DNA of 64,000 bases from Bacteroidales bacterium. GTDB taxonomy: Bacteria; Bacteroidota; Bacteroidia; Bacteroidales; F082. Both the position numbers and the translations under genes were made by a program. The stretch spans positions 82,893 through 146,892 of the forward strand of contig JAFTUF010000030.1 of assembly GCA_017466405.1 (NCBI GenBank), in the 5' to 3' direction. The notes beneath the pieces were generated by a model, which saw only the letters and a list, made by a program, of their open reading frames with translations, was not told where the DNA came from and searched no databases. Below are positions 3,060-63,860 of this stretch, piece by piece; position 1 is the first letter of the stretch; each line of letters opens with the position of its first letter.

Positions 3060-3322
3060 TCAACGGACAACTGTCAACAGTCAACAGACTTTGTCCACGT
3101 TAATATATTATTCCTAACGGCAGCATTTTAAAATTGTTTTACAAAAATAAAAAAAATATCAGGACGCACATCCACACAATTTTCAATTTTCATCATTCAG
3201 ACGTGTCAACGACATTCTTGTTAATTTCATTGGTGTCGTTGATGTTTCTCTACATTTTTTTATTTCCAGACGTGTCAACGATATATTGTTAATCTTTTTG
3301 GTGTCGTTGACGCGTCTCTACA
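3060..3322. repeat. Repeat cluster upstream of porX: (GACAACA)n type plus two GTAG-foot palindromes
   Basis: 3060-3099 is a GTCAACAG/GACAAC-rich repeat ending in TTTGTCC. Two long palindromes follow, at 3199-3254 and 3268-3322. Each has AGACGTGTCAAC at the left, a T/A-rich loop containing TTGTTAAT, and GTCGTTGA...CTCTACA at the right. The right end read in reverse is TGTAGAGACG. The second copy also forms the end of the nnrD/nnrE gene (see there). Confidence 0.85.
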
Positions 3323-4869
3323 AATTTTAAATTGTTAATTATGTCTCTTGCAATCATCGAATTCTCCCCTATTTCTTCGGCGGCTTTATCGCCAGCTTTT
3401 CCGTGAAGGTAAACACCGAGGAGAGCTGCTTCCTGAGGCAAATAGTGCTGAGCGAGAAGAGAAAGTATGATTCCTGTCAGCACGTCGCCGCTTCCTGCCG
3501 TAGCCATTCCCGGATTGCCTGTCGAGTTGAAGAAACAAGTTCCATTAGGAAAAGTTATTGCAGTATGAGCGCCTTTCAGAACGATGATTATATTATGCAC
3601 GACTGACATCTTTCTCTGAAGTTCAAGACGTTCGTAAGAATTATACGTCCTTCCGAACATACGCTCGAACTCCTTAGGATGAGGCGTAAGTATCGTATTA
3701 TCAGGAAGGAACGAGAGCCATGTCGGGTTATCCGCTATTATATTAAGAGCGTCAGCGTCCAAGACCAAAGGCTGCGTCGCTTCCTGAATTATTTTCTTCA
3801 ACAAAATCACAGTCTCTTCATTTTTTCCAAGACTGGGACCCACTCCTATCGCGTTATAAGACAAAATATCTTTTATTTCGGTGCAATGAGAATCCGATTT
3901 ATCGACCTCTGTCATTGCTTCTGGAAGATATATCTGCATCGGCAGCAAAGCGTCTTTTGGGAGATGCGCCGTGAGAAGACCCACGCCCGACCTGAGACAA
4001 GCCTCCGCAGCGAGAAGAGCAGCGCCTGTCTTGCCAGATGAACCTGCCACCAACAAAGCATGACCGTAAGTTCCTTTATGAGAGAACTTTGCACGCTTAC
4101 GTAATATCGGCATCGCCATCTCTTCCGTAGTGTAGAAATTCATTGTCTCCACATTTTCGATAAAATCCTTGTGAAGATTTATATCCAGAATCTCCCATTT
4201 GCCGACATAAACATCATTTTCCGGAAACATGAAAGCAAGCTTCGGAAATTGGAAACTCAGAGTGTAATCCGCTTTGAAGATTGACTGTGAGATGTGAGCT
4301 ATGAGTTGTGAGTCAGTTGATTTGGACGAAGACTGTTGACCGTTGTCTGTTGACTGTTGACTGCCGCAGGCAAAAAGTCCTGATGGAATATCAATAGCAA
4401 TTCGTATTGCGTTATTATTATTTAGATATTTTATTAAATCAGCTGCGAGACCTTCCAGACCTCTATTTAATCCAGAACCGAAGATTGCATCGACGATTAT
4501 TTCATTATCTTTAATTATAGGGAAGTCATCGTCGGTGAAGATGTCATACATTGGAGTCTCGGTCTCATCTTTCAACCTATTGAAATTCAACTCGCAGTCG
4601 CGACTCATTTTATCGGAAGTACGCACTACGAAAACCTGCGGTATTATTCCAGTGAAGAAAAGCATACGAGCGAGAGCGAGACCGTCGCCGCCATTGTTAC
4701 CCATTCCACAGAAAATCTTGATGACGACTTCCTTCGACTTACATCTTTTCACAATCCATTCATACACCTTAGACGCAGCGCGTTCCATCAAGTCAATGGA
4801 ATCAATTGGTTCATTTTCAATAGTAAAAGCATCAGCTTCTCTTATTTTTTCAACAGAAAGAATCTTCAT
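3289..4869 (-). CDS. nnrD: Bifunctional NAD(P)H-hydrate epimerase / ADP-dependent NAD(P)HX dehydratase
   Basis: The N-terminal half is NnrE (YjeF_N): MKILSVEKIREAD start, and the GMGNNGGDGLALA nucleotide motif. The C-terminal half is NnrD (YjeF_C): KGTYGHALLVAGSSGKTGA, LDADALNI, LTPHPKEFERMFG, KGAHT and GNPGMATAGSGDVLTG. The enzyme repairs hydrated NADH and NADPH. The start at 4869 fits the family; an upstream extension to 4959 has no homology that I recognise. Two oddities are seen. Between IDIPSGLF and KADYTLSFQFPK the loop is built from translated intergenic repeat (4285-4364), giving a Ser/Gln/Thr-rich segment in frame. The last residues (about VETRQRHQKD) and the stop codon come from a palindromic repeat (3268-3322). 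The catalytic motifs are intact, so the protein is probably functional. Confidence 0.93.
   Translation of the reverse strand: MKILSVEKIREADAFTIENEPIDSIDLMERAASKVYEWIVKRCKSKEVVIKIFCGMGNNGGDGLALARMLFFTGIIPQVFVVRTSDKMSRDCELNFNRLKDETETPMYDIFTDDDFPIIKDNEIIVDAIFGSGLNRGLEGLAADLIKYLNNNNAIRIAIDIPSGLFACGSQQSTDNGQQSSSKSTDSQLIAHISQSIFKADYTLSFQFPKLAFMFPENDVYVGKWEILDINLHKDFIENVETMNFYTTEEMAMPILRKRAKFSHKGTYGHALLVAGSSGKTGAALLAAEACLRSGVGLLTAHLPKDALLPMQIYLPEAMTEVDKSDSHCTEIKDILSYNAIGVGPSLGKNEETVILLKKIIQEATQPLVLDADALNIIADNPTWLSFLPDNTILTPHPKEFERMFGRTYNSYERLELQRKMSVVHNIIIVLKGAHTAITFPNGTCFFNSTGNPGMATAGSGDVLTGIILSLLAQHYLPQEAALLGVYLHGKAGDKAAEEIGENSMIARDIINNLKFVETRQRHQKD
4285..4364. repeat. Intergenic-type repeats lying inside nnrD/nnrE
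   Basis: 4285-4316 reads CTGTGAGATGTGAGCTATGAG and continues, matching the 'gtgagctatgag' repeat seen between genes at 29364-29440. 4331-4364 is the GTTGAC/GTTGTCTGTTGAC repeat seen in more than ten gaps. Both are kept in frame within the coding sequence. Confidence 0.85.
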
Positions 4870-4992
4870 CTCAGCAGATATTTTTGTTTTTACAAATATA
4901 GTGAAAAGATTAAAGATATAGGTTGAAAAGGCAAAGAATTTCAATTCACCACTTCCCAACGACCTCCTTAGTCAGGATCTTTCCATTCTTTT

Positions 4993-5087
4993 TCACTTGA
5001 AAAAGTGTATGACTTTACAGTTCATTCATTGGAAAAAGTGTAAAATATTTTGTTTATTCGTTGGAAAAAGTGTAAATTTGCCAGCAA
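4993..5087 (+). promoter_or_regulatory. Promoter with three direct repeats (putative operators) for the DUF4143 ATPase
   Basis: The core GAAAAAGTGTA occurs at 4999-5009, 5032-5042 and 5064-5074, spaced 33 and 32 bases, close to three helical turns. A promoter can be read as TTTTG (5048-5052), 20 bases, TAAATTTG (5073-5080). The third repeat therefore fills the promoter spacer and overlaps the -7 box. The first copy is nearly palindromic (CACTTGAAAAAGTG). This is the layout of an autoregulatory operator, although the ATPase has no recognised HTH domain. Confidence 0.6.
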
Positions 5088-5101
5088 ATAAGATACCAGC
5101 A

Positions 5102-6475
5102 ATGCTTAGAAGAAAAATCGAGTCCATTTTGGCTGAATGGAAAAAATCCGAATATAAGAAGCCAATAGTTATAAAAGGAATACGTCAATGCGGTAAGACA
5201 TATATTGTCCAAAAATTCGCAAAAGAGAATTATGAGAGTGTGATTTATATGAATTTCATCCTCGAACCTGATAAAAAGTCAGCCTTTGCGGGCAATATCG
5301 ATGTCGACACAATAGTACTAAACTTATCCGCCCTGATTCCAGGCAGCCGTTTCATCAGCGAAAAAACCTGTATCATCCTTGATGAGATTCAAGAATGCAG
5401 AGAAGCCAGAACTGCTTTAAAATCATTTCAAATAGATGGTCGTTATGATGTCATAGCAACAGGTTCTCTCTTGGGAGTGAAAGGATATGGAAAGAAAGCG
5501 AAAGATGGACAAGACTCTGTTCCTGTAGGATACGAAACTGTGGTTGAAATGTATCCATTGGATTTTGAGGAGTTTTTGTGGGCAAATGGAATAAATGATA
5601 AGGTTATTGACACAGTAAAATCATGCTTTGAAAAGGAAACAACGGTCCCGGAAGGCATCCATAAGGTCATGACGGAACTTCTGTACAGATATGTCATTGT
5701 TGGAGGCCTTCCTGAAGTTGTAAATAAATTCTTAGAAACCAGAAACATTGAACTCACATATCAAACTCAGCGAAATCTTATATCTGAATATGAAGAAGAT
5801 ATGGTCAAGTATGCTGACGATGCCGACAAAGTTCGTATTCGCGAATGTTTTGAATCCATACCAAAACAATTGGCTAAAGAAAACAAAAAGTTCCAATATT
5901 CTGCAATACGTAAAGGCGGACGAGCATCTCAATACACGGGCAGTATCCAATGGCTTGAGGACGCAGGATTGGTTAAGAGATGTTACAATACGCAGATTAC
6001 GGAATTGCCATTAGAAGGAAATTCCATGAAAGAGTGTTTTAAGCTTTACACCGCTGATATTGGTCTCCTTGTTGCCATGCTTGATTATGGTACTCAGGCT
6101 GATATTTTAAAGGGTAATCTTCTAGGATATAAAGGCGCAATATTTGAAAATCTCATGGCTGATTTTCTTTGTAAATCAGGACAGAAGTTGTACTATTTCC
6201 ATAAAGATAGTGGTTTGGAGTTGGATTTTCTAGTGCGATACAAGGGCGAATGTGTAGTGCTTGAAGTCAAGGCGAAATCAAGCAAAACTAAAAGTCTAAG
6301 AACGGTTCTGAAAAACAAAAATGTTTATCATATCAACAATGCCATTAAACTTGGAAATTATAATATTGGACGTGAAGAAGAAGTGCTAACGATACCTCTT
6401 TACATGGGATTTCTAATAAAAGACAGTATGGCAGATGTTATAGTTCCTGATATTGATTTGAGTTTGCTGACGTAA
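5102..6475 (+). CDS. AAA-type ATP-binding protein with DUF4143 nuclease-like C-terminus
   Basis: About 457 residues. The N-terminal P-loop is GIRQCGKTY, the Walker B region is CIILDEIQECREA, and the sensor segment is VIATGSLLG. DUF4143 features follow: PLDFEEFLWANG and VIVGGLPEVVNKF. Near the C-terminus, GLELDFLVRYKG followed by VVLEVKAKSSK has the D...ExK pattern of a PD-(D/E)XK nuclease fold. The start at 5102 (MLRRKIES) is preferred because it follows the promoter (TAAATTTG at 5073-5080); an earlier ATG at 4997 would lie upstream of it and translate the operator repeats. The biological role of the family is unknown. It is common and often multicopy in Bacteroidota, spreading like a mobile or defence-associated gene. 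Confidence 0.85.
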   Translation: MLRRKIESILAEWKKSEYKKPIVIKGIRQCGKTYIVQKFAKENYESVIYMNFILEPDKKSAFAGNIDVDTIVLNLSALIPGSRFISEKTCIILDEIQECREARTALKSFQIDGRYDVIATGSLLGVKGYGKKAKDGQDSVPVGYETVVEMYPLDFEEFLWANGINDKVIDTVKSCFEKETTVPEGIHKVMTELLYRYVIVGGLPEVVNKFLETRNIELTYQTQRNLISEYEEDMVKYADDADKVRIRECFESIPKQLAKENKKFQYSAIRKGGRASQYTGSIQWLEDAGLVKRCYNTQITELPLEGNSMKECFKLYTADIGLLVAMLDYGTQADILKGNLLGYKGAIFENLMADFLCKSGQKLYYFHKDSGLELDFLVRYKGECVVLEVKAKSSKTKSLRTVLKNKNVYHINNAIKLGNYNIGREEEVLTIPLYMGFLIKDSMADVIVPDIDLSLLT

Positions 6476-6538
6476 AAGATTTTAACATTCAACATCTTTA
6501 TTTTTCATCAAAACATTTGAATCAGATGATACAAAACA

Positions 6539-9160
6539 TTAAAAACGGAACTTCATTGAGCACATTATTTCCATCGGTCTGATTTCATATATCGATTCTT
6601 CTATGGAAAACGCTCCTGAATAATACGACACGTATGATTTGTTATTGAATATATTGGAACATTTTAACTCGAAGTCAATCTTGTGTTTTGGTATAGAATA
6701 CTGATACGACAAATCCACGTAAACATAATGCTCACCCCTATGCGAATATAATTCAGTATCGAGGCTGACAAGATGATTCCGATGAGGAAAAATTCCTATA
6801 TCACAATAATGACGGAAATAACTGACTTTGTTTTTCTCTTCATTACCAATATATGAAATTATATTATTGAAATTGAAGGAATATTCAAGATGAACATAAC
6901 GAGTTAAGCTAATTATGACATTCGGCATTATACTTGACGACATATTTCTATTTTCAACTAAACTGTCGTTCAATATATTATGTCCTTTTGTATATGCAAA
7001 GTTAGACTTCAGTCCTATTGTCGTCTTTATTGGAGAAATGAATTTCTTAATATTGAAATTAACCAAATGATATTGTGTCAAATTGGGGATATTAACTTTT
7101 TGAAGGATAGAAGCTCCTTTATCGTCAATGTCATATTTATACGTCATAGCAGTTTTTCTCTGCTGATAAGTATATATCAATGAAGAATTTATGGCGTAGA
7201 AAGGCTGTTCAAACGTCAATCGCGCATTGGCTCTGATAAGATTGGAGACAGACATCGGCGCCGTCATTCTTGTAATACTTTGATAATTATTTAAAACAAT
7301 ATTATCATAATAATTCTCGAAATTATCTATCTTCTGCTCATATTTACCGTATGCATAGAATTTGAACATATAGTTAAACGCATATTTCAACGACAAAGTA
7401 GGATTGAAAAATAATTTAGGCAGTTCTTGTCTATACCCTTTACTTTCAGTTATTGCATAATCCAACGAAAGCGGAAGATACATGCTAACAGTAGCTTTTC
7501 CATGCTTGTATTCAAGTTTCGTCTTAAGATAAGGTTGTGTATATGAATGAGTCACATCATTAACAAAAATATTGTCATTCGCAGCTGTACTATCCTGAAA
7601 TATCAAAGCATCTGTTTTAATCTTATTTTGATAATAACTAAATCCCAACTTGCTGCTCACAACCAAGCCTCCAAACATAAATATTCCGCTCAAGGCTTCA
7701 TTCGTATAGAAGCGCTCCTTGTCGTATTCTTGTCTTATTTTATTATACGATTTATCAAAATTAAATACATCTTCAAAGACACCAGGTTCCACTTCGAGAG
7801 ATTCCGGCATATTATCGTAGGAGACATAAGATACAAAATCCAAAAGATGCTTTCCGACAGGAAACAAAATTCGCAAATCATTAGATACGGTCATCGCCTG
7901 ATTATTAAGCATTTGATTTATATCTTCATTATCATTCAGTACATATCCATACGATTTATTCCACCTTTTTGAGAAATCAATCTTATCTTTTATATATGCA
8001 TTCTTATCATTCCTATCTATAGCCACGTCTGCTTTCAGATAAGAATCATATATTTTATTATTGATATTTTCAGTATATGAAATTGTATCATCTGGAAGTA
8101 AATAGGTATTTTGACGGAAAGAACTTTGTTTTTGTAAGTCGTTGATATAAGAAAGGTTCACTCTCATCTGAGTTTTTGGGCTTATAGGAGTCAGAATATT
8201 AAAATTAGCGAAATGAGACGTATTATTTAAATATCTGTTTTTCTCGATAAGAGGTGTGGAAGCAGTTTGTATAGCGAGATCTTCCGTTGCATCAGGAGGT
8301 CTTTCTTCAGTATTTTCAGAATAAAAGTTGAGATCACTATTTAGCAAGTCTTTACCTATGTTATTGGATTGAAGTGAAGTCACCATCTGAAGCTTGCTAG
8401 AAAAAAGCATCGGTGTTATATTGGTGTTCCACAAAAGAGGATATGCACCCACACCAACTTCTCCCGTACCGCTAACAGTAACGTTTTTAGATAGTTTTAT
8501 ATTTATGGACGCACGTTCCGTCGAAACCTTGTCTCTCAGCAACTCTATTGGCTGATGGTTTTCATATATCTCCACCGACGCCACCGATTGATGAGGAAGA
8601 TTTTTGCTGACGACCGAATATCTACCGTCCATAAGATCCATTCCTTCCACATAGAATTTCTGTATCGGCAAGCCTTGATATAAGATTTTACCGTTGTTCT
8701 CAACTTCAATGCCTGGCATTTTCTTCAGCACATCTTCAATACTTTTATCTTGCAGGCCCACAAAGGAATCGACAAAATATTCCACCGTATCGCCGGTTTT
8801 CTCAACAGGCTTGGCCATAACGGTAACACCTTTCAGCTGTTTCACTTCTTCTTTGAGAACAAAATCTATTGTCTGGGAGACATTTGGCACACGAAGAGTT
8901 TTCTTCTCAAAGAATGATGAGTTTGTCTTAACATCCAAACTGTCGGCAGTGAGGTTGAAACTTATTGTGTAATTGCCATCGATATCAGAGAAAGCATACG
9001 CCATTATCAAGTCGCTGCCGGCAATATGAACCAGAACGCTGAGATTTGGGATTGGCTCGCCTGAGGTATCGCTAACCCTGCCATTTATGACAGTCTGCGC
9101 TTGAACTCCTATGCCAAACAAAAGCAAAATGAGAACAAATATTAAAGACATTCTTTTCAT
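6539..9160 (-). CDS. Large outer-membrane beta-barrel protein, TonB-receptor-like, with carboxypeptidase-regulatory domain
   Basis: About 873 residues with a signal peptide (MKRMSLIFVLILLLFGIGVQAQ). Residues ~23-110 form a CarboxypepD_reg-like domain (INGRVSDTSGEPIPNL ... SDIDGNYTISF). A plug-like segment follows (SIEDVLKKMPGIEVENNG and YVEGMDLMDGRYS). The long C-terminal half alternates hydrophobic and polar residues and ends in MKFRF, as barrels do. I see no canonical TonB box, so it may be a barrel related to TonB receptors rather than a classic importer. It is the last gene of an apparent operon with a small exported peptide and a GLPGLI protein. Its cargo is unknown. Confidence 0.8.
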   Translation of the reverse strand: MKRMSLIFVLILLLFGIGVQAQTVINGRVSDTSGEPIPNLSVLVHIAGSDLIMAYAFSDIDGNYTISFNLTADSLDVKTNSSFFEKKTLRVPNVSQTIDFVLKEEVKQLKGVTVMAKPVEKTGDTVEYFVDSFVGLQDKSIEDVLKKMPGIEVENNGKILYQGLPIQKFYVEGMDLMDGRYSVVSKNLPHQSVASVEIYENHQPIELLRDKVSTERASINIKLSKNVTVSGTGEVGVGAYPLLWNTNITPMLFSSKLQMVTSLQSNNIGKDLLNSDLNFYSENTEERPPDATEDLAIQTASTPLIEKNRYLNNTSHFANFNILTPISPKTQMRVNLSYINDLQKQSSFRQNTYLLPDDTISYTENINNKIYDSYLKADVAIDRNDKNAYIKDKIDFSKRWNKSYGYVLNDNEDINQMLNNQAMTVSNDLRILFPVGKHLLDFVSYVSYDNMPESLEVEPGVFEDVFNFDKSYNKIRQEYDKERFYTNEALSGIFMFGGLVVSSKLGFSYYQNKIKTDALIFQDSTAANDNIFVNDVTHSYTQPYLKTKLEYKHGKATVSMYLPLSLDYAITESKGYRQELPKLFFNPTLSLKYAFNYMFKFYAYGKYEQKIDNFENYYDNIVLNNYQSITRMTAPMSVSNLIRANARLTFEQPFYAINSSLIYTYQQRKTAMTYKYDIDDKGASILQKVNIPNLTQYHLVNFNIKKFISPIKTTIGLKSNFAYTKGHNILNDSLVENRNMSSSIMPNVIISLTRYVHLEYSFNFNNIISYIGNEEKNKVSYFRHYCDIGIFPHRNHLVSLDTELYSHRGEHYVYVDLSYQYSIPKHKIDFELKCSNIFNNKSYVSYYSGAFSIEESIYEIRPMEIMCSMKFRF

Positions 9161-12111: not shown

Positions 12112-12160
12112 AAGTTGAAAATTGTAGGGACGTATCGCATACGTCCTAATCATACAATAT
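12100..12160. repeat. Repeats between rlmD and aroK: TTGAAA tract and short GTAG palindrome
   Basis: An alternating TTGAAAGT/TTGAAAAT tract overlaps the rlmD stop codon. It is followed by GTAGGGACGTAT-CGC-ATACGTCC (12124-12146), a perfect hairpin with a GTAG foot. Confidence 0.9.
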
Positions 12161-13877: not shown

Positions 13878-14479
13878 GATTGTAATAATTTAGATTGTAA
13901 AGATAGGGAAAAAGTCAAAAAACGAAAGATAAAAGGGGAAAGATTTTTTTGAAACTGAAAATCTGAAAAATTGAAAACCTGAGAATGCTTTAGTCGTAGA
14001 TGGAGCGCTTACTTCGAACGTAAATATTTTTTCTCGCGCAGAGACGCTGAGTAACGCAGAGGTTTTGCGTTTGGATTTTCTTTGCGGTCTTTGCGCCTTT
14101 GCGAGAGACATCTTGTGACCACGAATTAACACAAATCGGCACGAATTATTTTTTTTGTATCGTTCAGGTAGAGACGTATCAACAACACCAATGAAAATTA
14201 ACAATATGTTGTTGCTGCGTCTCCTCGTCTTTGACGACAACAGTCAACAATCAACGGACAACAGACATTGTCCACGGAAGGTGTTTTTGTGTTGTAATTC
14301 ATTCCCATATATTATTGAGAGCCACGTCCGTACAAATTCTAAAATTCTAGAATTTTGAAATTTTAAAAATTTCTCCTCGCTCAATGTATTCCGTGTCGCT
14401 TGCTTCGTTCGTCCCTCACTACGCCGCTCACTACATTCATTGAGCTCGGTTTTTTTAGCTTAGTACAAAATGATGAATG
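13878..14479. repeat. Gene-free stretch made of several repeat families
   Basis: No convincing gene. In order: AT-rich tracts with GAAAAT units to ~14000; a long imperfect palindrome at 14031-14108 (TTCTCGCGCAGAGACGC ... CTTTGCGAGAGA); a CACGAATTAACACAAATCGG unit; a GTAG-foot palindrome at 14168-14223 (arms CAACAAC/GTTGTTG); the CAACAATCAACGGACAACAG repeat at 14241-14277; and an imperfect hairpin at 14379-14442 (CTCAATG ... CATTGAG) after ltaE and the PEGA gene converge on it. Confidence 0.75.
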
Positions 14480-16855: not shown

Positions 16856-17163
16856 AAAAATATTTGATTTAGAGTTCACAAAGATAGGGAAAAAGTCGAA
16901 AGACGAAAGATAAAAAACGAAAGAATTTTGCAGCGGCGGAAATCCCGTACGGACGTGGCTTGCCGCGTCCCTACGCGCCTACACTTTCAATTTTCAGACG
17001 TGTCAATCACATTCTTGTTTATTTTTCATTGTTCAGACGCATCAACATTAATACGTCTCAACAATAACAATTGTCATAAAGAAAAAGCCGCATCAACATT
17101 CTTTTATTTTCATAGGCATTGTTGATACGGCTCTACCAAATTTCAATTTTCAATTTTCAACTT
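16856..17163. repeat. Gene-free stretch with palindromic repeats
   Basis: 16952-16975 is a short palindrome GGACGTGGC-TT-GCCGCGTCC followed by CTAC (GTAG foot on the other strand), with GC-rich arms. 16996-17060 holds partial long palindromes. 17086-17136 is a full copy in which the outer arm is AGCCG/CGGCT instead of AGACG/CGTCT. 17140-17176 is a CAATTTTCAACTTTCAA tract that enters the 3' end of the symporter gene. Confidence 0.8.
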
Positions 17164-18658: not shown

Positions 18659-19351
18659 TTATAAGAATTTCAATTGCTTATCCCAAACCTTCCAGTCGGG
18701 CATCTCCGCAGTCATCAAGGCATAGAATTCTTTAGAGTGATTCATGTGAACAAGATGACATAGCTCATGTAAGATTACAGCTTTGATACAGCCTTCTGGA
18801 AGTTTTATCAAATCTAAATTTAAATTAATACTTCCTTTCGAGGAACAACTTCCCCATCGTGTCTTCATCTTCTTTATCGTAAAAGATTTAGGAAAGACAT
18901 TGTATTTCTCTATCTGTTTCATCAAAGGTTCTGCGCATCTCTTAAAAACCGTACGTGCTTGTTCAAAATACCAGCTATCGAGCAGAAACGAAATATCAAC
19001 GGACGTATGTGATACGTCCCTACAGTATATGTGAATAACGTCATTAATAAACGTAACTGAATTTCTCGTCGCAGCTTCAATTTTCAGTGGATATTGTTCT
19101 CCGAGGAAATAATGCAGTTCGCCATCGACATATTTCTTAGGCTCGTGCGTTTTCTTTTCAGGAGCATCTAGACGATTGAATATCCATCTGTGATGTTTGA
19201 CGAGAAAAGGTTCCACTTCATCAATATTATAAAGGAGAGGCACTTTCAATTCGATGCGTTTGTCGGGATGAATCTGAATGGCGACAGTTCTTCTCTGCGA
19301 GCGAACTATCTCGCAGTTCAATGTTCTTCCTTTTATGATGAAAGTCTTCAT
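18659..19351 (-). CDS. YgjP/M48-like zinc metallopeptidase (DUF45 family)
   Basis: 230 residues. The zinc motif is HELCHLVHMNH (H195, E196, H199, H205), preceded by the family signature MKTRWGSCSSKGSINLN. These proteins are predicted soluble zinc peptidases related to SprT; cellular targets are unknown. Codons for residues 110-117 (19001-19024) are exactly a short GTAG-foot palindrome that elsewhere is intergenic, so eight residues (CRDVSHTS) are repeat-derived. The reading frame and catalytic site are intact. The symporter gene follows after 4 bases. Confidence 0.88.
   Translation of the reverse strand: MKTFIIKGRTLNCEIVRSQRRTVAIQIHPDKRIELKVPLLYNIDEVEPFLVKHHRWIFNRLDAPEKKTHEPKKYVDGELHYFLGEQYPLKIEAATRNSVTFINDVIHIYCRDVSHTSVDISFLLDSWYFEQARTVFKRCAEPLMKQIEKYNVFPKSFTIKKMKTRWGSCSSKGSINLNLDLIKLPEGCIKAVILHELCHLVHMNHSKEFYALMTAEMPDWKVWDKQLKFL
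19001..19024 (-). repeat. Short GTAG palindrome inserted in frame in the metallopeptidase gene
   Basis: On the coding strand it reads TGTAGGGACGTATCACATACGTCC. The hairpin arms GGACGTAT/ATACGTCC are perfect and match the intergenic copies at 12124-12146 and 28056-28078. Its length of 24 bases equals eight codons. Confidence 0.92.
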
Positions 19352-25741: not shown

Positions 25742-25792
25742 TTTTACAATATTTTGCGTTTATAATTCTAAAAAACTTTTAACTTCAGTTGG

Positions 25793-25847
25793 AGACGCAT
25801 TGATTACATATTGTTTATTTACGTAGGTGTAATTAGTACGTCTCTAC
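25793..25847. repeat. GTAG-foot long palindrome
   Basis: Begins AGACGCATTGATTACA, has a loop TATTGTTTATTTACG, and ends TGTAATTAGTACGTCTCTAC. The middle arm GATTAC/GTAATT differs from other copies but still pairs. Confidence 0.85.
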
Positions 25848-27600: not shown

Positions 27601-28135
27601 CGCAGCAAAATTCTGTCGAATTTGATTGAGACGCAGCAAAATTCTGTCGAATTTTGATACGTCTCTACAGGATTGCTACCAAATAAAAGGAATCTTCAAG
27701 ACTCAATAATACGAGTAGAAATTATTTAAAAGCAGCGCCCTTCGCGTTAGGGATTGGAGCGGCATCCTTTGCGAGCTTTAGCGGGGACGGGGGTTGGGTG
27801 CGGGGACGGGTGTTGGGAGCGGGAGCGGGATTTGGGAGCGGGAACGGGATTTGGGTGCGGGAATGGGTGTTGGGAGCGGGGATAGATTAGCGAGCAAAGA
27901 TATAGCGGAAAGCCCGACGGCGATAGCAGGAACGCCAAAAAAAAGTCAACAGACAACGGACAACAGTCAACAGAGTTTGTCCACGATAATTTAGGGACGT
28001 ATCTCGTAAAGTTGAAAATTGAAAATTGAAAGTTGAAAGTTGAAAATTGAAAATTGTAGGGACGTATTGCATACGTCCAAATTGAAAATTTAAAATTGAC
28101 AATCTATAAGAATGTACATCTATAGAAATAAATCT
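27601..28135. repeat. Repeat-filled gap with a G-rich tract
   Basis: No gene. 27601-27668 holds one and a half palindromes with arms CAAAATT/AATTTTG. 27782-27881 is a G-rich tract of GGGAGC/GGGAAC/GGGTG units with well over ten GGG runs on the plus strand, a strong G-quadruplex candidate. 27950-27990 is a GACAACA repeat. 28010-28055 is a TTGAAA tract. 28056-28078 is a short GTAG palindrome. The stretch before 28170 also holds the promoter of the next gene. Confidence 0.85.
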
Positions 28136-36895: not shown

Positions 36896-37049
36896 TAAAG
36901 AATTGAAAGTGACACATCAATTACACCTATATATTATTAAACTGTAATTGCTGCGTCTCTAAATGTGAGTTAATTAATAAACTTTCAACTCACAACCTCC
37001 AACTTTATAACTACTCTAAACTATTAACAATAAACAATAAACTTTAAAA

Positions 37050-38914: not shown

Positions 38915-38971
38915 GTAGAGACGTACCAATTACACCTAAAAAAATTAACAATATGTAATTGTTGCGTCTCT
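38915..38971 (+). repeat. GTAG-foot long palindrome
   Basis: GTAGAGACGTACCAATTAC, loop CTAAAAAAATTAACAATAT, then GTAATTGTTGCGTCTC. Middle arm AATTAC/GTAATT. Confidence 0.88.
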
Positions 38972-41848: not shown

Positions 41849-42028
41849 TTGTTTTTATTTATTAGTTGTTAAAATATTTTAAGTCAACAGACAACGGGAC
41901 ACAACAGACTTTGTCCAAAACTTTCAATTTTCCATTTTCAACTTTCAATTTATCAGACGTGTCAACAACATTATTGTTTATTTTCATAGGTGTTACCGAC
42001 GCGTCTCTACAATTTCCAATTGTATTTC

Positions 42029-43628: not shown

Positions 43629-43885
43629 TTATATAAAACCTGAAAATTTTAGATTATTTTTTGCTTTGAACTCATGCCTTCATTTTATGCAAATTTGGAA
43701 TCCAATGCCAAAATTACATAAAAATTAAATACGAAATAATGTTCTAATATTTTTTTATAAAGTCAACAGACAACGGACAACAGTCAACAGACTTTGTCCC
43801 TACAATTTTCAACTTTCAATTTATCAGACGTGTCAACAACATTATTGTTTATTTTCATTAGGTGTTGTTGACGCGTCTCTACAAA
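43629..43885. repeat. Gap with GACAACA repeat and long palindrome
   Basis: AT-rich to ~43758. A GTCAACAGACAACGGACAACAG repeat spans 43759-43798. A GTAG-foot palindrome spans 43826-43882 (arms CAACAACA/TGTTGTTG), ending 3 bases before the stop codon of the next gene. Confidence 0.85.
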
Positions 43886-45693: not shown

Positions 45694-45721
45694 TTTTTTA
45701 AAGTTTAGAGTTTAATTTAAA

Positions 45722-45866
45722 GTCAACAGACAACGGACAACAGTCAACAGATTTTGTCCATAATTTTTATGTCAACAGACAACGGACAACAGTCAACAGA
45801 TTATGTCCAAAATTTTTATGTCAACAGACAACGGACAACAGTCAACAGATTATGTCCAAAATTTTC
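45722..45866. repeat. Three perfect-period tandem copies of the GACAACA repeat
   Basis: The unit starts GTCAACAGACAACGGACAAC and occurs at 45722, 45771 and 45820, a period of exactly 49 bases. It ends each time in TTTTGTCC or TTATGTCC plus an AATTTTTAT spacer. Confidence 0.93.
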
Positions 45867-45885
45867 AATTTTCAATTTTCAACTT

Positions 45886-47063: not shown

Positions 47064-47212
47064 AATTTTTATTTTTAATGTCAACAGACAACAGACAACA
47101 GACAACGGACAACAGTCTTAGTCCACAGTATTTTATCTCGTAGAGACGTACGGACGTACGTCTTAAAAAATTCCTGCAAACCATTAGTCATTTGTCTTTA
47201 GTCATTTGTCTT
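47064..47212. repeat. Gap with GACAACA repeat and short GTAG palindrome
   Basis: GACAACAGACAACAGACAACGG at 47082-47123, then GTAGAGACGTAC-GG-ACGTACGTCT at 47140-47163. Confidence 0.85.
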
Positions 47213-48115: not shown

Positions 48116-48233
48116 AATTTTTATTTTTTTAAAGACCACTCCCGTAGAGACGCGCGGACGTGCGACTAAAAACCTGATTGTTCATTTCAGTCACACGTCC
48201 GTGTGACTCTACAAGAGATTATGCTAATTAAAT
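48116..48233. repeat. Two short GTAG palindromes
   Basis: 48144-48167 GTAGAGACGCGCGGACGTGCGACT, and 48189-48212 AGTCACAC-GTCC-GTGTGACT followed by CTAC (opposite orientation). Confidence 0.88.
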
Positions 48234-48551: not shown

Positions 48552-48634
48552 AAAGACCTCCTTTTTTAGTTTAGAATTTATTATTTTGCTTCGAGCTGTG
48601 AGCTCATTACTTAATTTTCAATTATTATCAATAA

Positions 48635-48688
48635 GACGCGGCAATTACATATTGTTAATCTTTTTTGGTGTAATTGATACGTCTCTAC
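48635..48688. repeat. GTAG-foot long palindrome
   Basis: AGACGCGGCAATTACATATTG ... GTGTAATTGATACGTCTCTACA, middle arm AATTAC/GTAATT. It ends 1-2 bases before the stop of the next gene. Confidence 0.88.
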
Positions 48689-48689: not shown

Positions 48690-49895
48690 TTAATTTTCAA
48701 CTTTCAATTTATTAATGATTTCAGAGTAGTCTCCCAAGTCTCCTGTTTCATAGACGATTTCCTTATTGGGAGAAACCAAATAATAATATCCCAATGTCGG
48801 AATATTGATGACTGTCATAATATCTTTTGCAGAATACGCTATATCTTCGGAATTTGATTTTGAGGCAATTTGTCTTATGTGTTCTAAATTATTGGAACGA
48901 TGTTCTATTGCCAAAATCTTAATTCCTTCATTTTCAAGAATCCTATATCCTAACGAATCTTTTTCGTGAGAATATTCCTTAAGATGTTGCAGACACGGAC
49001 CGCAATTTGTAGTCCAGAAGTTAAGCAATATCCAGCCGTCTTGTTCTCTGATGGAAGTGGTGTCGCCTTCAAGATTTACGAGAGGATAATCTAACAAACC
49101 TTGCGACATCTGATTTGACAGTGTCTTTACCGGCATCGTAAACTCATCATATTTTGAATAAGACGTGTATTCTACATTACTGAAATCAAAGATAGAGTCG
49201 ATATAGCCTTGTCGATTTTCATAACTCACATCATAAAAAGTCATGTATCTGCGCACTGTAGATCCATCATCTAAGTTTTGTTCCATATACAAACTATCCA
49301 AAAAATTTGTTTCATTATTCACAAAAGATGTAACCATATCACCATAACCTGCGAGTTTAGATCTGTATTTGTTGTATGTACTTCCGTTTAGGTCTATGGT
49401 TTCAACATTATAAAATATGTGTAATAATGCCCATGTATTTGCAAAATCGATAGGTTTCATAAAGTAAGCCGGATCACAGAAATAATTTGCAATCTTGCCG
49501 AAAATTGCCAATTCCTTATATTTCTTACTTTTATCTTTTCTGTTTTTACTTATATCGTACAGATTGTTCTTGGCAACATCTATTCTTTTATAATGATTGT
49601 TCGTTATCAAAATATAATCAAGATTGTTGTCATTCAAAAAAATCATCGAATTATCATCGTCGTATTTTATAATAACATCCGTTACAATATCCCAATAGAG
49701 AGAATCATTGTAATAATTCATTATCCTATATTTAAACGAAACCCATTCGTGAGAATCTGCGAAAGCTGCAGCCTGTTGCTTGTATTGTTTAGAAACTTTG
49801 AGATTCATTTTATCTTCAGTTTCTTGCGCATTGCTATAATCGGCAAATATTAAGATGAATGAAAATAAGCAAATTAATTTTAGAAATGTTTTCAT
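48690..49895 (-). CDS. Exported thioredoxin-fold protein with CGPC
   Basis: 401 residues with a signal peptide (MKTFLKLICLFSFILIFADYSNAQ). An N-terminal ~260-residue unknown domain is shared with the paralogue at 44512-45693. It is followed by a TlpA-type thioredoxin fold with redox motif C298-GP-C301 (LLNFWTTNCGPCLQHLKEY). It is expected in the periplasm or on the surface. The tail LKVEN is followed by TAA at the edge of a repeat. Confidence 0.8.
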   Translation of the reverse strand: MKTFLKLICLFSFILIFADYSNAQETEDKMNLKVSKQYKQQAAAFADSHEWVSFKYRIMNYYNDSLYWDIVTDVIIKYDDDNSMIFLNDNNLDYILITNNHYKRIDVAKNNLYDISKNRKDKSKKYKELAIFGKIANYFCDPAYFMKPIDFANTWALLHIFYNVETIDLNGSTYNKYRSKLAGYGDMVTSFVNNETNFLDSLYMEQNLDDGSTVRRYMTFYDVSYENRQGYIDSIFDFSNVEYTSYSKYDEFTMPVKTLSNQMSQGLLDYPLVNLEGDTTSIREQDGWILLNFWTTNCGPCLQHLKEYSHEKDSLGYRILENEGIKILAIEHRSNNLEHIRQIASKSNSEDIAYSAKDIMTVINIPTLGYYYLVSPNKEIVYETGDLGDYSEIINKLKVEN

Positions 49896-50170
49896 ATTGT
49901 GAGTTTTCGTCTCGCGGTTCCTTACTCCGCTTTGTTGGTGAGACGATTCTTTTTTTTATGTCAACAGACAACGGACAACAGTCAACAGACTTTGTCCAAA
50001 ATTCTCAATTTTCAATTTTCTTTCCATTACGTCAAAGAACCTTTTACCTATCTGCTGTATTAATTAACTAATACACTGCAAATATAGAGATAATTTTTTA
50101 CATGTCAAGAGAAAAATGAAAAATTTTGAAAAAAAATTTAAAAGCTTAGTTATATATATATTATTCTTTT
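49896..50170. repeat. Repeat-containing gap left of the candidate small RNA
   Basis: 49907-49947 can fold (CGTCTC ... GAGACG). 49960-49998 is a GACAACA repeat. The remainder to 50170 is AT-rich. No gene seen. Confidence 0.7.
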
Positions 50171-52222: not shown

Positions 52223-52258
52223 TGTTGTTATTATTTTAATTTTATTTCCAAATTCATG

Positions 52259-52313
52259 AGACGCAGCAATGACATATTATATATTCTATAGGAGTCATTG
52301 ATACGTCTCTACA
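52259..52313. repeat. GTAG-foot long palindrome inside RND operon 2
   Basis: AGACGCAGCAATGACATATTA ... GGAGTCATTGATACGTCTCTAC, middle arm CAATGAC/GTCATTG. It begins 1 base after the permease stop codon and lies within the transcribed region between permease and channel. Confidence 0.88.
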
Positions 52314-55443: not shown

Positions 55444-55461
55444 AATATTATCTCCTCGTTA

Positions 55462-58028: not shown

Positions 58029-58355
58029 ATGAAAATAACATTTAAAGATAAGGCCTTATCTGATTTATATGAGAACGGTAAAACCGAAGATCGAAAATAT
58101 AAGAAAATATGCAGAAACATAAGGCTAATCGAAGGTTATCAAAGAGCTGTCTCTATAATGTATGATGTAGAATCGACGGAAGAACTTAGATATTTTAGTT
58201 TTTTGCATTATGAAAAACTGAAATATCAAAAAGAAGCCAAAAGTTCTGTACGGATCGTGAACGGAATGGTGGAACGTTTGTTATTTACTGAGACAGATGA
58301 CGGAATTGAAGTTGAACTTTTAGAAATAGATAGTACTCATTATGGCAACAAATAA
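58029..58355 (+). CDS. higB: HigB-family toxin (RelE-like mRNA interferase)
   Basis: 108 residues from MKITFKDKALSDLYENG. The RelE/HigB fold is indicated by DRKYKKICRNIRLIEGYQRAVSIM, LHYEKLKYQKEAKSSVRIVNGMVERLLFTE and the closing EVELLEIDSTHYG. An earlier in-frame ATG at 57999 would overlap the -7 box and is rejected. The gene overlaps higA by 14 bases. Confidence 0.87.
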   Translation: MKITFKDKALSDLYENGKTEDRKYKKICRNIRLIEGYQRAVSIMYDVESTEELRYFSFLHYEKLKYQKEAKSSVRIVNGMVERLLFTETDDGIEVELLEIDSTHYGNK

Positions 58356-58944: not shown

Positions 58945-58961
58945 GCCTCATAAACAAAAAA

Positions 58962-58985
58962 AAGCCGCTTCACAGCGGCTTCCTT
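58962..58985 (-). terminator. Terminator of the thrS-rplT operon, shared with higA
   Basis: Hairpin AAGCCGCT (58962-58969) / AGCGGCTT (58974-58981). The minus strand has a long T-run after it; the plus strand has CCTTTT. Confidence 0.85.
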
Positions 58986-59005
58986 TTACACTCATTCAGT
59001 TATTA

Positions 59006-59350
59006 TTACTTAATTTTTTCAACGATAGCTTTAAATGCTTCTGGATTATTCAAAGCTAAGTCGGCTAAAACCTTACGATTAAGGTCGATGTTAGCTGCGT
59101 GAAGTTTACCCATGAATGTGCTGTATGTCATGCCGTATTCATGTGCTGCGGCATTGATACGGATAATCCATAAGGATCTGAAATCACGTTTCTTGTTTCT
59201 TCTGTCGCGATATGCGTATTGTAAACCCTTTTCGTAAGAGTTCTTAGCTACAGTCCAAACGTTTTTACGTGCGCTGAACTGGCCCTTTGTCTGTTTTAAA
59301 ACTTTTTTGCGTCTTGCTCTTGAAGCGACTGCGTTAACTGATCTTGGCAT
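59006..59350 (-). CDS. rplT: 50S ribosomal protein L20
   Basis: 114 residues: [24 protein letters not shown], the RNA-binding basic helix and [24 protein letters not shown]. Last gene of the operon. Confidence 0.98.
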
Positions 59351-59369
59351 TTTTTTACTTTTTATTCCG

Positions 59370-59410
59370 TTAGAGTGCCTCGCCCTTTCGAGAACTTTTC
59401 TACTCTAACA
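59370..59410 (-). promoter_or_regulatory. Hairpin between rpmI and rplT
   Basis: GTTAGAGT (59370-59377) pairs perfectly with ACTCTAAC (59403-59410). An internal hairpin CTCG/CGAG (59380-59393) closes a CCCTTT loop. The position matches sites where L20 represses its own operon in other bacteria. Confidence 0.5.
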
Positions 59411-59433
59411 AGAGTTAAACAATTAATTTAAAA

Positions 59434-59628
59434 TTACATGAGAAGCATTTCTTTCACAGCTTTCATATTAGCTGGCTCAACAATAGTAGCGTGGCGTAAG
59501 TTACGTTTACGTTTTACTGACTTCTTTGTCAAGATGTGGCTTTTATAAGCGTGCTTTCTCTTTACTAAACCGGTGCCTGTTACTCTGAAACGTTTCTTGG
59601 CAGCGGATTTTGTTTTCATTTTTGGCAT
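59434..59628 (-). CDS. rpmI: 50S ribosomal protein L35
   Basis: 64 residues: [43 protein letters not shown]. Standard gene order with rplT. Confidence 0.97.
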
Positions 59629-59663
59629 TGTAATATACTTTTTTTTAAAATGAGTGTCTATCT

Positions 59664-60221
59664 TTATTTCTTAGGAGCAATCATCATAAGCATTCTCTTG
59701 CCTTCCAACTTAGGCATCGACTCCACCTTGCCGTAGTCGGCCAATGCTTGCGCGAACTTCAACAAGATAATCTCGCCTTGGTCTTTGTAAGCAATGGAGC
59801 GTCCGTGGAAGAATACGTCAACCTTGACCTTTGCACCATCTTCTAAAAATCTCTTGGCATGATTCAACTTGAACTCGAAATCATGGTCGTCGGTTTGTGG
59901 TCCCAAACGAATCTCTTTGATGACGACTTTCGTTGTCTTTGCCTTGATTTCCTTTTGTTTCTTCTTTTGGTCGAAGAGGAATTTCTTATAATCCATCAGC
60001 TTACATACCGGAGGATTGGCATTAGGTGAAATCTCAACTAAATCGAGTCCCATCTCGTCAGCAATCTTGAGAGCCTCTCTTATCGAGTGAATCTCATTGT
60101 CAACGCCTTCTCCAACAACTCTCACCATAGGTGAAGTGATTCTCTCGTTGATACGATGTGGATCTTCGTTCTTCTGTCCTCTCTGTGGACCTCTTCCGTT
60201 ATTAACAGGTAGTGCTATGAT
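59664..60221 (-). CDS. infC: Translation initiation factor IF-3, non-AUG start
   Basis: The body is a complete IF-3 (NGRGPQRGQ ... [48 protein letters not shown], then the C-terminal domain). The first in-frame ATG (60128) falls in the middle of the N-terminal domain and would remove the conserved RINERI segment. Upstream there is a stop (TAG) and then ATC-ATA directly behind GGAGACACAA. The start is therefore ATC (60219-60221) or ATA (60216-60218), giving 185 or 184 residues. This matches the AUU start of E. coli infC, which lets IF-3 repress its own translation. Confidence 0.9.
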
Positions 60222-60256
60222 TTGTGTCTCCTATATTAATTTAACAATCTTTATAT

Positions 60257-62197
60257 TTATTTTATTTTTTGTTCTTCTTTGACTTGCTTGTCGATGAATG
60301 CGACAAACTCTTCTGCCGACATAGATCCCAAGTCGCCTTGTCCGTGTTTTCTTACAGAGACTGAGTTTTCGTTCATCTCTTTCTCACCGACGATGAGCAT
60401 ATAAGGAACTTTCTTCATTTCAGCGTCACGGATCTTACGGCCTATCTTCTCGCTTCTCATGTCGATCAAAGTACGGATTTCGTTTCTCTTCAACATCTCG
60501 TTGAGTTTCTCTGCATGTTCGTGATATTTCTCACTTACAGGCAAAATCATGACTTGATCTGGTGTGAGCCACAATGGGAAGTCGCCGGCGCAGTGTTCTA
60601 ACAATACAGCCACGAAACGTTCCATTGAACCGAAAGGTGCTCTGTGAATCATGACAGGACGATGTTTCTCGTTGTCAGAACCGATGTAAGTCAAGTCGAA
60701 ACGTTCTGGCAAGTTGTAGTCAACTTGGATTGTACCGAGTTGCCATCTTCTTCCGAGAGCGTCTTTTACCATGAAGTCCAACTTAGGACCGTAGAAAGCT
60801 GCCTCGCCGTATTCAACGACTGCTGGAAGACCTTTTTCCTTGCAAGCCTCAACGATAGCTGCTTCTGCTCTTTCCCAGTTTTCGTCTGTACCAACATATT
60901 TCTCTGTGTCTTCAGGGTCGCGTAAAGAAATCTGTGCTTCGAAGTTTTCAAAGTTCAAAGCCTTGAAGATAATCTCGATGATTTCCATCACGCGGATGAA
61001 TTCGTCTTTTACTTGATCTGGACGGCAGAAGATATGAGCGTCATCTTGTGTGAAAGAACGTACACGTGTTAAACCGTGAAGCTCGCCACTTTGTTCATAA
61101 CGATATACTGTTCCGAATTCTGCGAGACGCAAAGGAAGGTCTTTGTATGAACGAGGCTGCCATTTATATATCATACAGTGATGAGGACAGTTCATAGGTT
61201 TCAACAAATACACTTCGCCTTCTTCAGGAGTTGTGATTGGCTGGAAGCTGTCGTGTCCGTAATGATCCCAGTGACCTGAGGTAACGTAAAGTTGTTTGTT
61301 ACCGATGTGAGGAGTCATCACTTGTTCATAACCGTATTGTTTTTGAATCTTTGTCAAGAATTCTTGAAGACGGAGACGCAATGCTGTACCTTTTGGCAAC
61401 CACATTGGGAGGCCCTTACCTACCATCTCGCTGAACATGAAGAGTTCGAGTTCTTTGCCGAGTTTACGGTGATCGCGTTTCTTAGCTTCTTCCAAGAGAA
61501 CGAGATATTCTTCGAGTTCTTTCTTCTTCAAGAATGTGATACCATAGATACGAGTGAGCTGTTTGCGTTTCTCATCGCCGCGCCAGTAAGCACCTGCTAT
61601 GGATAATAATTTTATAGCTTTGATGCAGCTTGTGTCAGGAATGTGAGGTCCGCGGCATAAGTCGGTGAAGGTTCCAGTTTTATAATAGGTGATGGTTCCG
61701 TCCTCTAACTCACTGATGAGTTCTTGTTTATATTCGTCGCCTTTGTCGGTGAAATGTTTCAAAGCTTCAGCTTTAGAGACATCGATACGTTCGAAGGCTT
61801 GTTTCTCGTGAGCGAGTTCCATCATACGTTTCTCGATCTTGGCGAGGTCTTCTTCTGTGATTACGTTCTCGCCGAAGTCAACGTCATAATAGAAACCGTT
61901 TTCGATGCTTGGTCCGATTCCGAACTTGACACCTGTGTAAAGCTGTTCGATAGCTTCAGCCATCAAGTGAGCTGATGAGTGCCATACGGTTGCCTTGCCT
62001 TCTGGGTCGTTCCATGTGAAGAGCTGGATTTCTGCGTCTTCATTAACAGGACGCATAGCATCCCACATTACGCCATTAACTTTGGCTGACAACACGTTAC
62101 GAGCTAAACCTTCGCTGATGCTCTTAGCTATATCGAGAGGCGTTACACCTGCTTCAAACTGTCTGACAGTCTTATCCGGAAATGTTATGTTTATCAT
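60257..62197 (-). CDS. thrS: Threonyl-tRNA synthetase
   Basis: 646 residues: TGS-type N-terminus ([17 protein letters not shown]), editing-domain [15 protein letters not shown], catalytic domain with [30 protein letters not shown] and a C-terminal anticodon-binding domain. A start 12 bases earlier (62209) is also possible. The promoter -7 box is the complement of 62224-62231. First gene of thrS-infC-rpmI-rplT. Confidence 0.97.
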
Positions 62198-62209
62198 CTT
62201 TATAATCAT

Positions 62210-62488
62210 CTAAAAAACGGGTGCAAATATAAACATTTTTTTCAATGAATAATGCATAATTAACAATGCAATGCGAAATTATTTTTTTTGTAAGACTTGG
62301 AAGGTTAAAAGGATAAAAATTGTGTAAAAAAATTTAACAAATTCTTTTTTTTTCAAAATAAAATTCTAAACTTTGTACCACCAAATCAAGGTAACAAAGA
62401 CACCCTCCTGATGATGGAAACAGGGTTCTGCCAACTGATGAAGGGAAATTTATTTTTACAAATAGAACCCATCTAAACCTATTTTATT
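62210..62488. promoter_or_regulatory. Divergent control region, thrS and the secreted protein
   Basis: The thrS -7 box TATATTTG is the complement of 62224-62231. On the plus strand, TAAACTTTG (62368-62376) is an imperfect -7 box for the next gene. The leader 62377-62488 holds inverted arms GGGTTCT (62423-62429) / AGAACCC (62464-62470), a CCCT/AGGG pair, and two CTGATGA...GAAA-like direct repeats (62408-62450). Confidence 0.5.
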
Positions 62489-63727
62489 ATGAAAAAACTT
62501 TACAATTTTTCAGTCGCTATGGCATTGTTAATTTTATGTGCCATCAGCGTAAAAGCTCAAAACCCAGACGTCTATGTCGGAGGTATTTTAAACATTCAAG
62601 CTGCGATATGGGAAAATGAAGTCCCTCGAACAATTGACGGCTCTGAAGTTAACACCATCGTTACAGTCGGAGAAGACTTTTATATTGCTGGTTTAGATAA
62701 AGATTATTCACCTGTGGTATGGAAGAATGACGAATTATTATATTCTCTCAATGAAGGTGATTACAACTACTTTGGCAGGTCTGTTTCTTCTATGATAGTT
62801 CACGAAGGTGACGTTTATGTAACCACAATCGACTTAATCTCTAGCGGATTTATTGGCAGATTATGGGTTAATGGAGTTGTTGTTGAAGGTTACGAAGATG
62901 CTATAGAGTTGTATGCTGTTGTCATTGATGGAGATGATATTTATGTAGCAGGCAGAACAAACGAATTAGCTGTGATATGGAAAAATGCAGAGCCTCTATA
63001 CACATACGATTCTCCTTACACAGGACTTTTCGCTGATGTTAAAGTCGTCGATGGTGACGTATATTACGTTGGTGGCGATTTTGGTGGCGGCGCAGGTAAA
63101 AACGCTACTATAAAGAGTAAAGACGATGTTATAGTAAATCAAGACAACAACAGAAATTCCATCAATGTTTGGAAAAACGGAGAAGTAATTTATACTCTTG
63201 CAAATGAAGTATATGGAGCAAAAATAGTCGTTTCTGATGGTAATGTTTATGCTTGTGGTCAAATACCTAATGGCGGCGTATATAAAGCTGTTGTCTGGAT
63301 TAATGGTGAAATGAACATAATCACTGACGTCTGGAGTGGAGCTCACGGATTGTGCGTATATAACAACGATTTATATGTAACGGGATTTATGGGTAACGAC
63401 CCTGAATTAGACGCTTTCATATGGAAAAACGGAGAACTCTCAACTCTTACTTCTCCAGGATATGATATGGGATATTGTATCTTGGTAATGGGTGATAACA
63501 CATCTGTAGAAGAGATAAACGACTACTGCAATATTTATCCTAATCCAGCAGACGATTATGTTTTAATTGAAGGTGTTGAATTTGAGAAAGCTGTTCTCTA
63601 CAACAGTTTAGGTCAATTGGTTTTAACTACCACCAGCAACAGGATAGATGTATCATCTTTAGAATCTGGACTTTATTTGTTAAAACTCGATGACAATATT
63701 ACAAGAAATATTATCGTCAAACACTAA
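62489..63727 (+). CDS. Secreted repeat protein with type IX C-terminal sorting domain
   Basis: 412 residues with a signal peptide (MKKLYNFSVAMALLILCAISVKAQ). About seven beta units of the form VWKNGExxY ... DVYVTG suggest a propeller-like fold. The C-terminal ~75 residues match the type A sorting domain: NIYPNPADDYVLIEG, LYNSLGQLVL, IDVSSLESGLYLLKL. It should be exported by the type IX system, which PorX (1489-3051) regulates. Ligand unknown. Confidence 0.9.
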   Translation: MKKLYNFSVAMALLILCAISVKAQNPDVYVGGILNIQAAIWENEVPRTIDGSEVNTIVTVGEDFYIAGLDKDYSPVVWKNDELLYSLNEGDYNYFGRSVSSMIVHEGDVYVTTIDLISSGFIGRLWVNGVVVEGYEDAIELYAVVIDGDDIYVAGRTNELAVIWKNAEPLYTYDSPYTGLFADVKVVDGDVYYVGGDFGGGAGKNATIKSKDDVIVNQDNNRNSINVWKNGEVIYTLANEVYGAKIVVSDGNVYACGQIPNGGVYKAVVWINGEMNIITDVWSGAHGLCVYNNDLYVTGFMGNDPELDAFIWKNGELSTLTSPGYDMGYCILVMGDNTSVEEINDYCNIYPNPADDYVLIEGVEFEKAVLYNSLGQLVLTTTSNRIDVSSLESGLYLLKLDDNITRNIIVKH

Positions 63728-63770
63728 CATTTAACAATTATATTTCACTCCAAAAGGACGCCGCTCCTTT

Positions 63771-63860
63771 GTAAAGACGCGTCGATAATACCTTAAAAAT
63801 TAACAATATATTATCGACACGTCTCAAAAAACATCCGAAAACAATGAGACGTGTCAATTA
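63771..63860. repeat. One full and one truncated long palindrome
   Basis: 63771-63825: GTAAAGACGCGTCGATAATA ... TATTATCGACACGTCTC (middle arm GATAAT/ATTATC). 63846-63860: GAGACGTGTCAATTA, cut off where the IS element starts. Confidence 0.85.

Follow-up and report, generated by a model that had tools for sequence, protein, structure and literature searches.

The closest described systems are repetitive extragenic palindromes (REPs) and their REP-associated tyrosine transposases (RAYTs), as treated in three papers. The first (PMC3733652) reports 24 families of REPs tagged with GTAG, for which RAYT-driven movement was hypothesised, and one REP type with a loop of up to 27 whose inner part is self-complementary. 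According to the second (PMC8266576), in vitro work on the recognition of REPs by RAYTs covers a few Proteobacterial pairs; the Escherichia coli REPs carry conserved mismatches in the middle of the stem, and a regular stem eliminated or severely affected activity. The third (PMC6006769) places subclass 2.6 of the TnpA Y1 proteins mostly in the Bacteroidetes, flanked by atypical structures that are copied elsewhere in the genome. We analysed a stretch of 64,000 nucleotides (hereafter, the window) of contig JAFTUF010000030.1 from a Bacteroidales bacterium (GCA_017466405.1), over which GTAG-footed hairpins are scattered. With a probability of about 0.88, we conclude that these repeats are REPs, the non-autonomous elements of a RAYT (TnpA-REP, Y1 HUH) transposase, and we regard them as a REP family belonging to a divergent clade of Bacteroidales RAYTs; the family has long loops and a T·G/C·A mismatch that is kept.

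The elements resemble the GTAG REPs of PMC3733652 in the GTAG at one end of the stem-loop, in the alternative complementary residues of the stem and in their position, mostly downstream of genes. They share with them a high copy number and an extragenic location (only 6 of 142 copies are inside an open reading frame, ORF). However, the loops described there are mostly 2-3 and, when large, 9-15, whereas the AT-rich loop here has a median of 19 nt (10-90% range 17 to 21), and the T·G/C·A mismatch kept here sets these elements apart. The likeness to the E. coli group 2 REPs (PMC8266576) lies in the GTAG foot and the conserved mid-stem mismatches, which are A12A13-G26C27 in that system and a single switching T·G/C·A pair in an AT-rich, long-loop hairpin in ours.

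The hairpin family and its kept mismatch

All 11 coordinates given in the preliminary description, which had claimed at least 11 scattered palindromes, were verified and one more copy was found (36909-36962), bringing the window to 12 (Table 1). Read on the GTAG strand, the element has the form GTAG-AGACG-Y-inner arm-loop-inner arm-R-CGTCT(C). A covariance model recovered the 12 copies at 50.7 to 79.1 bits (E value 1.1e-10 to 4.6e-18), scores that are partly given by construction since the model was built from these copies. In the genome of origin (2.43 Mb, 69 contigs, 95% complete), the scan gave 150 matches, the best 150 of 3714 candidates being scored, so the number of copies gathered, at least 142 (138 distinct), is a lower bound. 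This set derives from 163 matches from 100 sources, of which the best 150 were aligned and eight opposite-strand repeats removed; loci L134, L145 and L148 (29 to 43 bits), one 24-bit match (contig C55), sub-threshold matches and at least one further copy (L147) lie outside it. The pairs L003/L004 and L098/L115 have common flanks and each is perhaps one place assembled twice; one pair of identical copies (L010, L011) occupies different sites.

The foot is exactly GTAG in 131 of the 142 copies and 108 start with GTAGAGACG; the altered outer arm AGCCG/CGGCT, previously noted for one copy, is real, and five copies start in this way. Copy length is 47 to 61 nt in 140 cases, the other two measuring 88 and 107 nt with insertions. 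The ends are sharp, at GTAG and CGTCT(C), and the flanks (0.09 to 0.42 bits per position) share little sequence except for AT-rich tracts preceding many copies. A 40-nt form is present at window position 27628-27668 and at six other places, and a decayed 82-nt form was found on contig C44. In one locus (L146, 1201-1307), the 3' arm of a copy is split by a palindrome of about 45 nt ending in GAAGTGACCCCAAAAGTTTGGAC, ends that we take to resemble those of insertion sequences.

Folded as single-stranded DNA, eight hairpins (six of full length, one of 82 nt and one of 40 nt) had z scores of -3.8 to -6.6. Among the 12 window copies, 90.3% of the cells pair, a value reached by none of 500 shuffles, and double-sided changes affect 19 cells (shuffled mean 8.2); two other measures were less distinctive, 34 of 500 shuffles equalling the pairs with a double change and 437 of 500 the further pair types. 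For the 138 distinct copies, 93.0% of the cells are Watson-Crick (position 10 excluded), as opposed to 83.0% after shuffling (maximum 84.7% in 1000). The copies are related by ancestry, and the shuffle tests therefore overstate significance. The signal is concentrated at positions 11, 16 and 17, which vary strongly and whose partners change together: position 17 (n=136) uses all four Watson-Crick pairs (TA 71, GC 26, AT 21, CG 12), position 16 (n=138) is TA in 106 and CG in 29 copies, and position 11 (n=138) is AT in 81, GC in 38 and TA in 2. Watson-Crick counts at positions 17, 16 and 11 were 130/136, 135/138 and 121/138, versus shuffled means of 50, 91 and 71. Pairing slightly exceeded the shuffled level at positions 7, 8, 13, 19 and 20, and was at or near it at positions 4, 5, 6, 9, 14, 15 and 18, because variation there is scarce or one-sided. 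Inner and middle stem modules occur in many combinations.

These results agree with the earlier observation that the middles of the stems differ between copies and stay complementary. The same description had tied its case to arms more variable than the loop and to pairing above chance. The inner arm, with a mean entropy of 0.68 bits, is no more variable than the loop (0.83 bits), and pairing is kept above chance; it is this kept pairing, and not arm variability, that speaks against chance.

The pair at position 10, directly inside GAGACG (after GTAGAGACG), behaves differently from the rest of the stem. Of the 138 copies, 81 have T·G there, 49 C·A, 4 C-G and 4 T-A, so that the two mismatched forms account for 130 copies, versus a mean of 73 and a maximum of 92 in 10000 shuffles, and Watson-Crick pairs for only 8, versus a shuffled mean of about 65. 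Position 10 is therefore a mismatch that is kept mismatched and that itself covaries, T·G exchanging with C·A, a feature absent from the preliminary description. As wobble pairs, T·G and protonated A·C are nearly isosteric. Each form is combined with several inner stems, and the adjoining position 12 is loosely paired (T-A 56, T·C 54 and C·A 19 of 138). In other genomes, 32 of 35 copies could be parsed, with TG in 16, CA in 13, CG in 2 and TA in 1; this set includes some identical copies, and both CG cases come from one place present twice (L035, L193). Literature searches confined to open-licence papers, none of them on this exact phrase, turned up no mention of a position covarying between T·G and C·A. 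In the double-footed palindromes of the genus, a single element shows T·G or C·A depending on the strand that is read. Apparent double-foot palindromes, GTAGAGACGYGCCATGGCRCGTCTC, adjoin RAYTs at L303, L304, L305 and L315, and the double-foot palindromes beside these other RAYTs of the genus are like those of subclass 2.4 (PMC6006769).

RAYT-like genes and the distribution of the elements

Among 99 genomes of the genus, 11 were found to carry the element, the genome of origin included (E up to 1e-6); across the order it was detected in one of 295, again the genome of origin (E up to 1e-7), both surveys using stricter filters with few candidates scored per genome; one weak single match came from another family (G057, E 2.8e-5). 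A RAYT profile (A4) had matches in 71 of the 99 genus genomes and in seven of the 11 carriers, the gene being split in one of these (G072). Searches with Pfam alone missed or split many RAYTs, because their scores are near or below the cut-off. The preliminary description had read the GTAG foot as the mark of a RAYT and proposed a search for its gene; RAYT-like genes do lie beside the elements in seven relatives, and none was found in the genome of origin. A RAYT gene flanked by the repeats, a further feature of GTAG REPs, is thus present in seven of the 11 carriers, the others being the genome of origin, G009, G027 and G062.

The RAYT-like proteins, first seen as weak Y1 matches in carriers, have 165 to 189 aa, lengths that depend on the chosen starts (L293 lacks one). 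The motifs MPNHxH, W and Y-I-x-x-N are invariant in the nine proteins aligned, which hence possess the HUH motif and one catalytic tyrosine. Subclass 2.6 (PMC6006769) is similar in size (near 180 aa here) and in the motifs NH[VI]H (9/9 here) and WQ (8/9); its tyrosine motif is YIH[QN]NP, as opposed to YIxNN in seven of our nine proteins, and these motifs suggest a possible link with that subclass. NF047646 (REP-associated tyrosine transposase) was the best family for all five proteins scanned (E 9e-11 to 3e-14). The best solved-structure match of the RAYT profile was E. coli TnpA-REP (PDB 4er8; whole-sequence E 5e-5, best stretch 0.014); a phmmer search of the PDB with one RAYT gave no convincing relative (best E 0.62), and two RAYTs queried against a defence library had no match.

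Of 41 RAYT loci scanned for elements (E up to 0.001), nine have elements of at least 40 nt adjoining the gene (L287, L291, L293, L327, L328, L329, L331, L332 and L333), and these cover all seven RAYT-bearing carriers. In eight of the nine, the nearest elements are inverted on both sides, their GTAG feet facing the gene; L333 matched on the upstream side only, the contig end truncates one side of L293 to a 30-nt match, and L329 has a split gene. Several of these loci have elements of about 40, 55 and 82 nt with a common basal stem, and L327 (G068) and L331 (G080) are 93% identical over 1.19 kb, up to the end of the L331 contig. The element at L288 is some 700 nt from the gene, matches at L319 and L320 are pairs of short palindromes, and the remaining loci have 25-nt matches (seven loci) or none. 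In a RAYT tree of 38 rows, a branch with support of 98/98 separates 27 RAYTs without a directly adjoining element from 11 others: eight are flanked by the elements, two (L334 and L335) go with short T·G hairpins, and L296 sits on a very long branch; 13 of the 35 inner branches are open.

At the nine intact loci of this clade with scanned hairpins (L287, L291, L293, L327, L328, L331, L332, L334 and L335), each locus has a single mismatch type. This holds for 42 of 43 hairpins, the exception pairing across two neighbouring elements, although hairpins within a locus are near copies and the number of observations is effectively about nine. At L329, where the gene is split, T·G hairpins occur together with a single degenerate C·A copy. 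We tentatively suggest, as a possibility falling somewhat short of even odds, a recognition code in which each transposase of the clade would demand one non-Watson-Crick pair, switchable between T·G and C·A, at a fixed position.

In line with the comparison proposed earlier, orthologous sites were found to be occupied in some species and empty in others (Table 1). At the site of 52258-52312, other or shorter forms are present in G009, L202, L205 and L206, and no copy was seen in G027, L203, L207, L208, L209 and L210 (L208 to L210 by eye). L204 has a copy near 47140, where the genome of origin carries a different short palindrome.

Copies and other repeats in the window

Table 1. REP-type hairpins in the window, with the strand bearing the GTAG foot.
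Feature	Position	Strand	Remarks
REP copy	3199..3253	-	GTAG on - strand; outer stem GAGAAAC
REP copy, C·A type	3268..3321	-	Stem CAACGA/TCGTTG; head-to-tail with the 3199 copy, gap 15 nt
REP copy, T·G type	14168..14223	+	Stem CAACAAC/GTTGTTG
REP copy, AGCCG/CGGCT subfamily	17082..17136	-	
REP copy, T·G type	25792..25847	-	
Short-loop form, 41 nt	27628..27668	-	One base longer than the 40-mers adjoining the G068 and G080 RAYT genes
REP copy	36909..36962	-	Absent from the preliminary description; foot TTAG; orthologous site in L204 without copy
REP copy, T·G type	38915..38970	+	Stem CAATTAC/GTAATTG
REP copy, C·A type	41955..42010	-	
REP copy, C·A type	43826..43882	-	Stem CAACAAC/GTTGTTG
REP copy, T·G type	48633..48688	-	Orthologous site in L204 without copy
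REP copy, T·G type	52258..52312	-	Stem CAATGAC/GTCATTG; common to L204
REP copy, C·A type	63771..63825	+	Foot GTAA; stem GATAATA/TATTATC

An Rfam scan of the window at gathering thresholds gave two tRNAs and no other match. A second GTAG-footed family, of short palindromes GTAGGGACGTATYRCATACGTCC, is found at 12124-12147, 28056-28078 and 19001-19023. At 16996-17062, an apparent truncated REP half adjoins a 28-nt short form, which suggests a deletion between copies. The palindrome GTAGAGACGTACGGACGTACGTCT at 47140-47164 also adjoins the RAYT of genome G078 (L296) and has a relative at 48144-48199. Repeats GTCAACAGACAACGGACAACAGTCAACAG and TTGAAAATTGAAAGTTGAAAATT lie beside many REPs (45715-45880, 49953-50020 and others); G027 has GGAATTAGGAATTA tracts at the corresponding place, and other copies in the genome of origin have tracts like CACCGAGTCACCAAGTC. 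A stretch of about 1 kb (48974-49998) is 98% identical to positions 27125-28148 of contig C129 of G027, another species, the longest neighbouring match being 78% identical, and it may reflect a recent transfer.

Alternative explanations, mechanism and significance

With a crude ORF calling, 87 of the 142 copies were placed between genes of the same direction, 25 between convergent and 10 between divergent genes, 6 inside ORFs, and 14 at locus edges were left unclassified. Within same-direction gaps, 71 of the 87 copies are nearer the end of the upstream gene (median 37 nt) and 69 are oriented with transcription; this placement is what would be expected if the copies were kept mainly as RNA hairpins at gene 3' ends, as mRNA stabilisers or terminators, with pairing kept for the transcript. 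Part of the placement is background, since window gaps of at least 60 bp are themselves mostly same-direction (21, versus 5 convergent and 8 divergent). Moreover, T·G becomes a U·G pair in RNA and C·A a mismatch, so C·A copies should face against transcription, but 26 of 28 are oriented with it, a larger share than among the T·G copies (41 of 56; Fisher p 0.044). This orientation disfavours an RNA-level reason for T·G, and the same hairpins lie on both sides of RAYT genes; we therefore consider the RNA explanation improbable. Neighbouring copies less than 150 nt apart are head-to-tail in 11 of 12 pairs, unlike most of the GTAG REPs described in PMC3733652.

Quasi-palindromes are known to mutate through hairpin-templated correction. 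Repair of one arm by copying the other would yield paired changes for free, making selection superfluous, and this process may contribute to the inner stem. It should, however, also fix position 10, which retains one of the two mismatches in 130 of 138 copies, and it seems unlikely as the general explanation of the complementarity. Movement by the two Y1 transposases of the genome of origin, the only Y1 genes found there, is less plausible by far. Their motif, YIxNQxxHH, is that of subclass 1.2 (PMC6006769), their loci (L001, L002) contain no REP element match up to E 5 and have repeats of another kind, and the carriers G027, G062 and G072 lack a PF01797 match up to E 0.05; these genes were therefore rejected as the source of the elements. 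The repeats near these subclass 1.2-like genes (L001, 1366-1480; L002, 2140-2250) are GCGCYGTAGGCGCGA, a different family.

Several observations weigh against our conclusion that the elements are REPs of a RAYT clade sharing a kept mismatch. The RAYT profile has no match in the genome of origin (G000), G009, G027 or G062, although G009 is rated 100% complete and G027 holds identical element copies; a scan of the genome of origin with the RAYT region gave only one 36-nt match (E 0.03), taken as chance. The NF047646 scores of 42 to 53 bits are under the cut-off of 80 in all five proteins, hence our label 'RAYT-like', and the Pfam cut-off is reached by two of the five. L288, with its distant element, groups among the 27 other RAYTs, and filled and empty sites could also be explained by loss, gain and loss not being separable. 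As for the mismatch, SELEX (systematic evolution of ligands by exponential enrichment) picked that of E. coli only moderately, and group 3 REPs are perfect palindromes that are harmed by a mismatch (PMC8266576). Nor does the mismatch hold generally: other RAYTs of the genus accompany short palindromes that pair perfectly, and we rejected the idea that all RAYT hairpins of the genus share it, many of them being perfect palindromes. Several copies lie less than 300 nt from contig ends (e.g. C28, C33, C38, C51, C67, C69), and the gene missing from the genome of origin may therefore fall in an assembly gap.

The preliminary description held that the folded form matters, and this is borne out by pairing kept through double-sided changes and by the same hairpins beside RAYT-like genes. 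Analogy and linkage give good support to the REP mechanism that we propose, the movement of the elements being an inference. One strand would become exposed in single-stranded form and fold into a hairpin with a GTAG foot, a GAGACG basal stem, the imperfect T·G/C·A pair, a covarying inner stem and an AT-rich loop. The cognate RAYT would recognise GTAG, the hairpin and the irregular spot on the folded strand, position 10 probably having a role similar to that of the E. coli mismatches, and would then cut and either move or copy the element, mostly to spots just behind genes. The T·G and C·A forms may be preferred by different RAYTs, in which case the genome of origin would contain the products of at least two specificities, and it would have lost its RAYT gene unless the assembly misses it.

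An uncultured gut Bacteroidales genus with dozens of RAYT loci and several hairpin families allows recognition to be read comparatively. As a candidate determinant of RAYT-REP recognition, the mismatch that is kept and covaries is precise and can be tested, and the genomes with hairpins in which no RAYT was found may offer a picture of REPs after the loss of their transposase.

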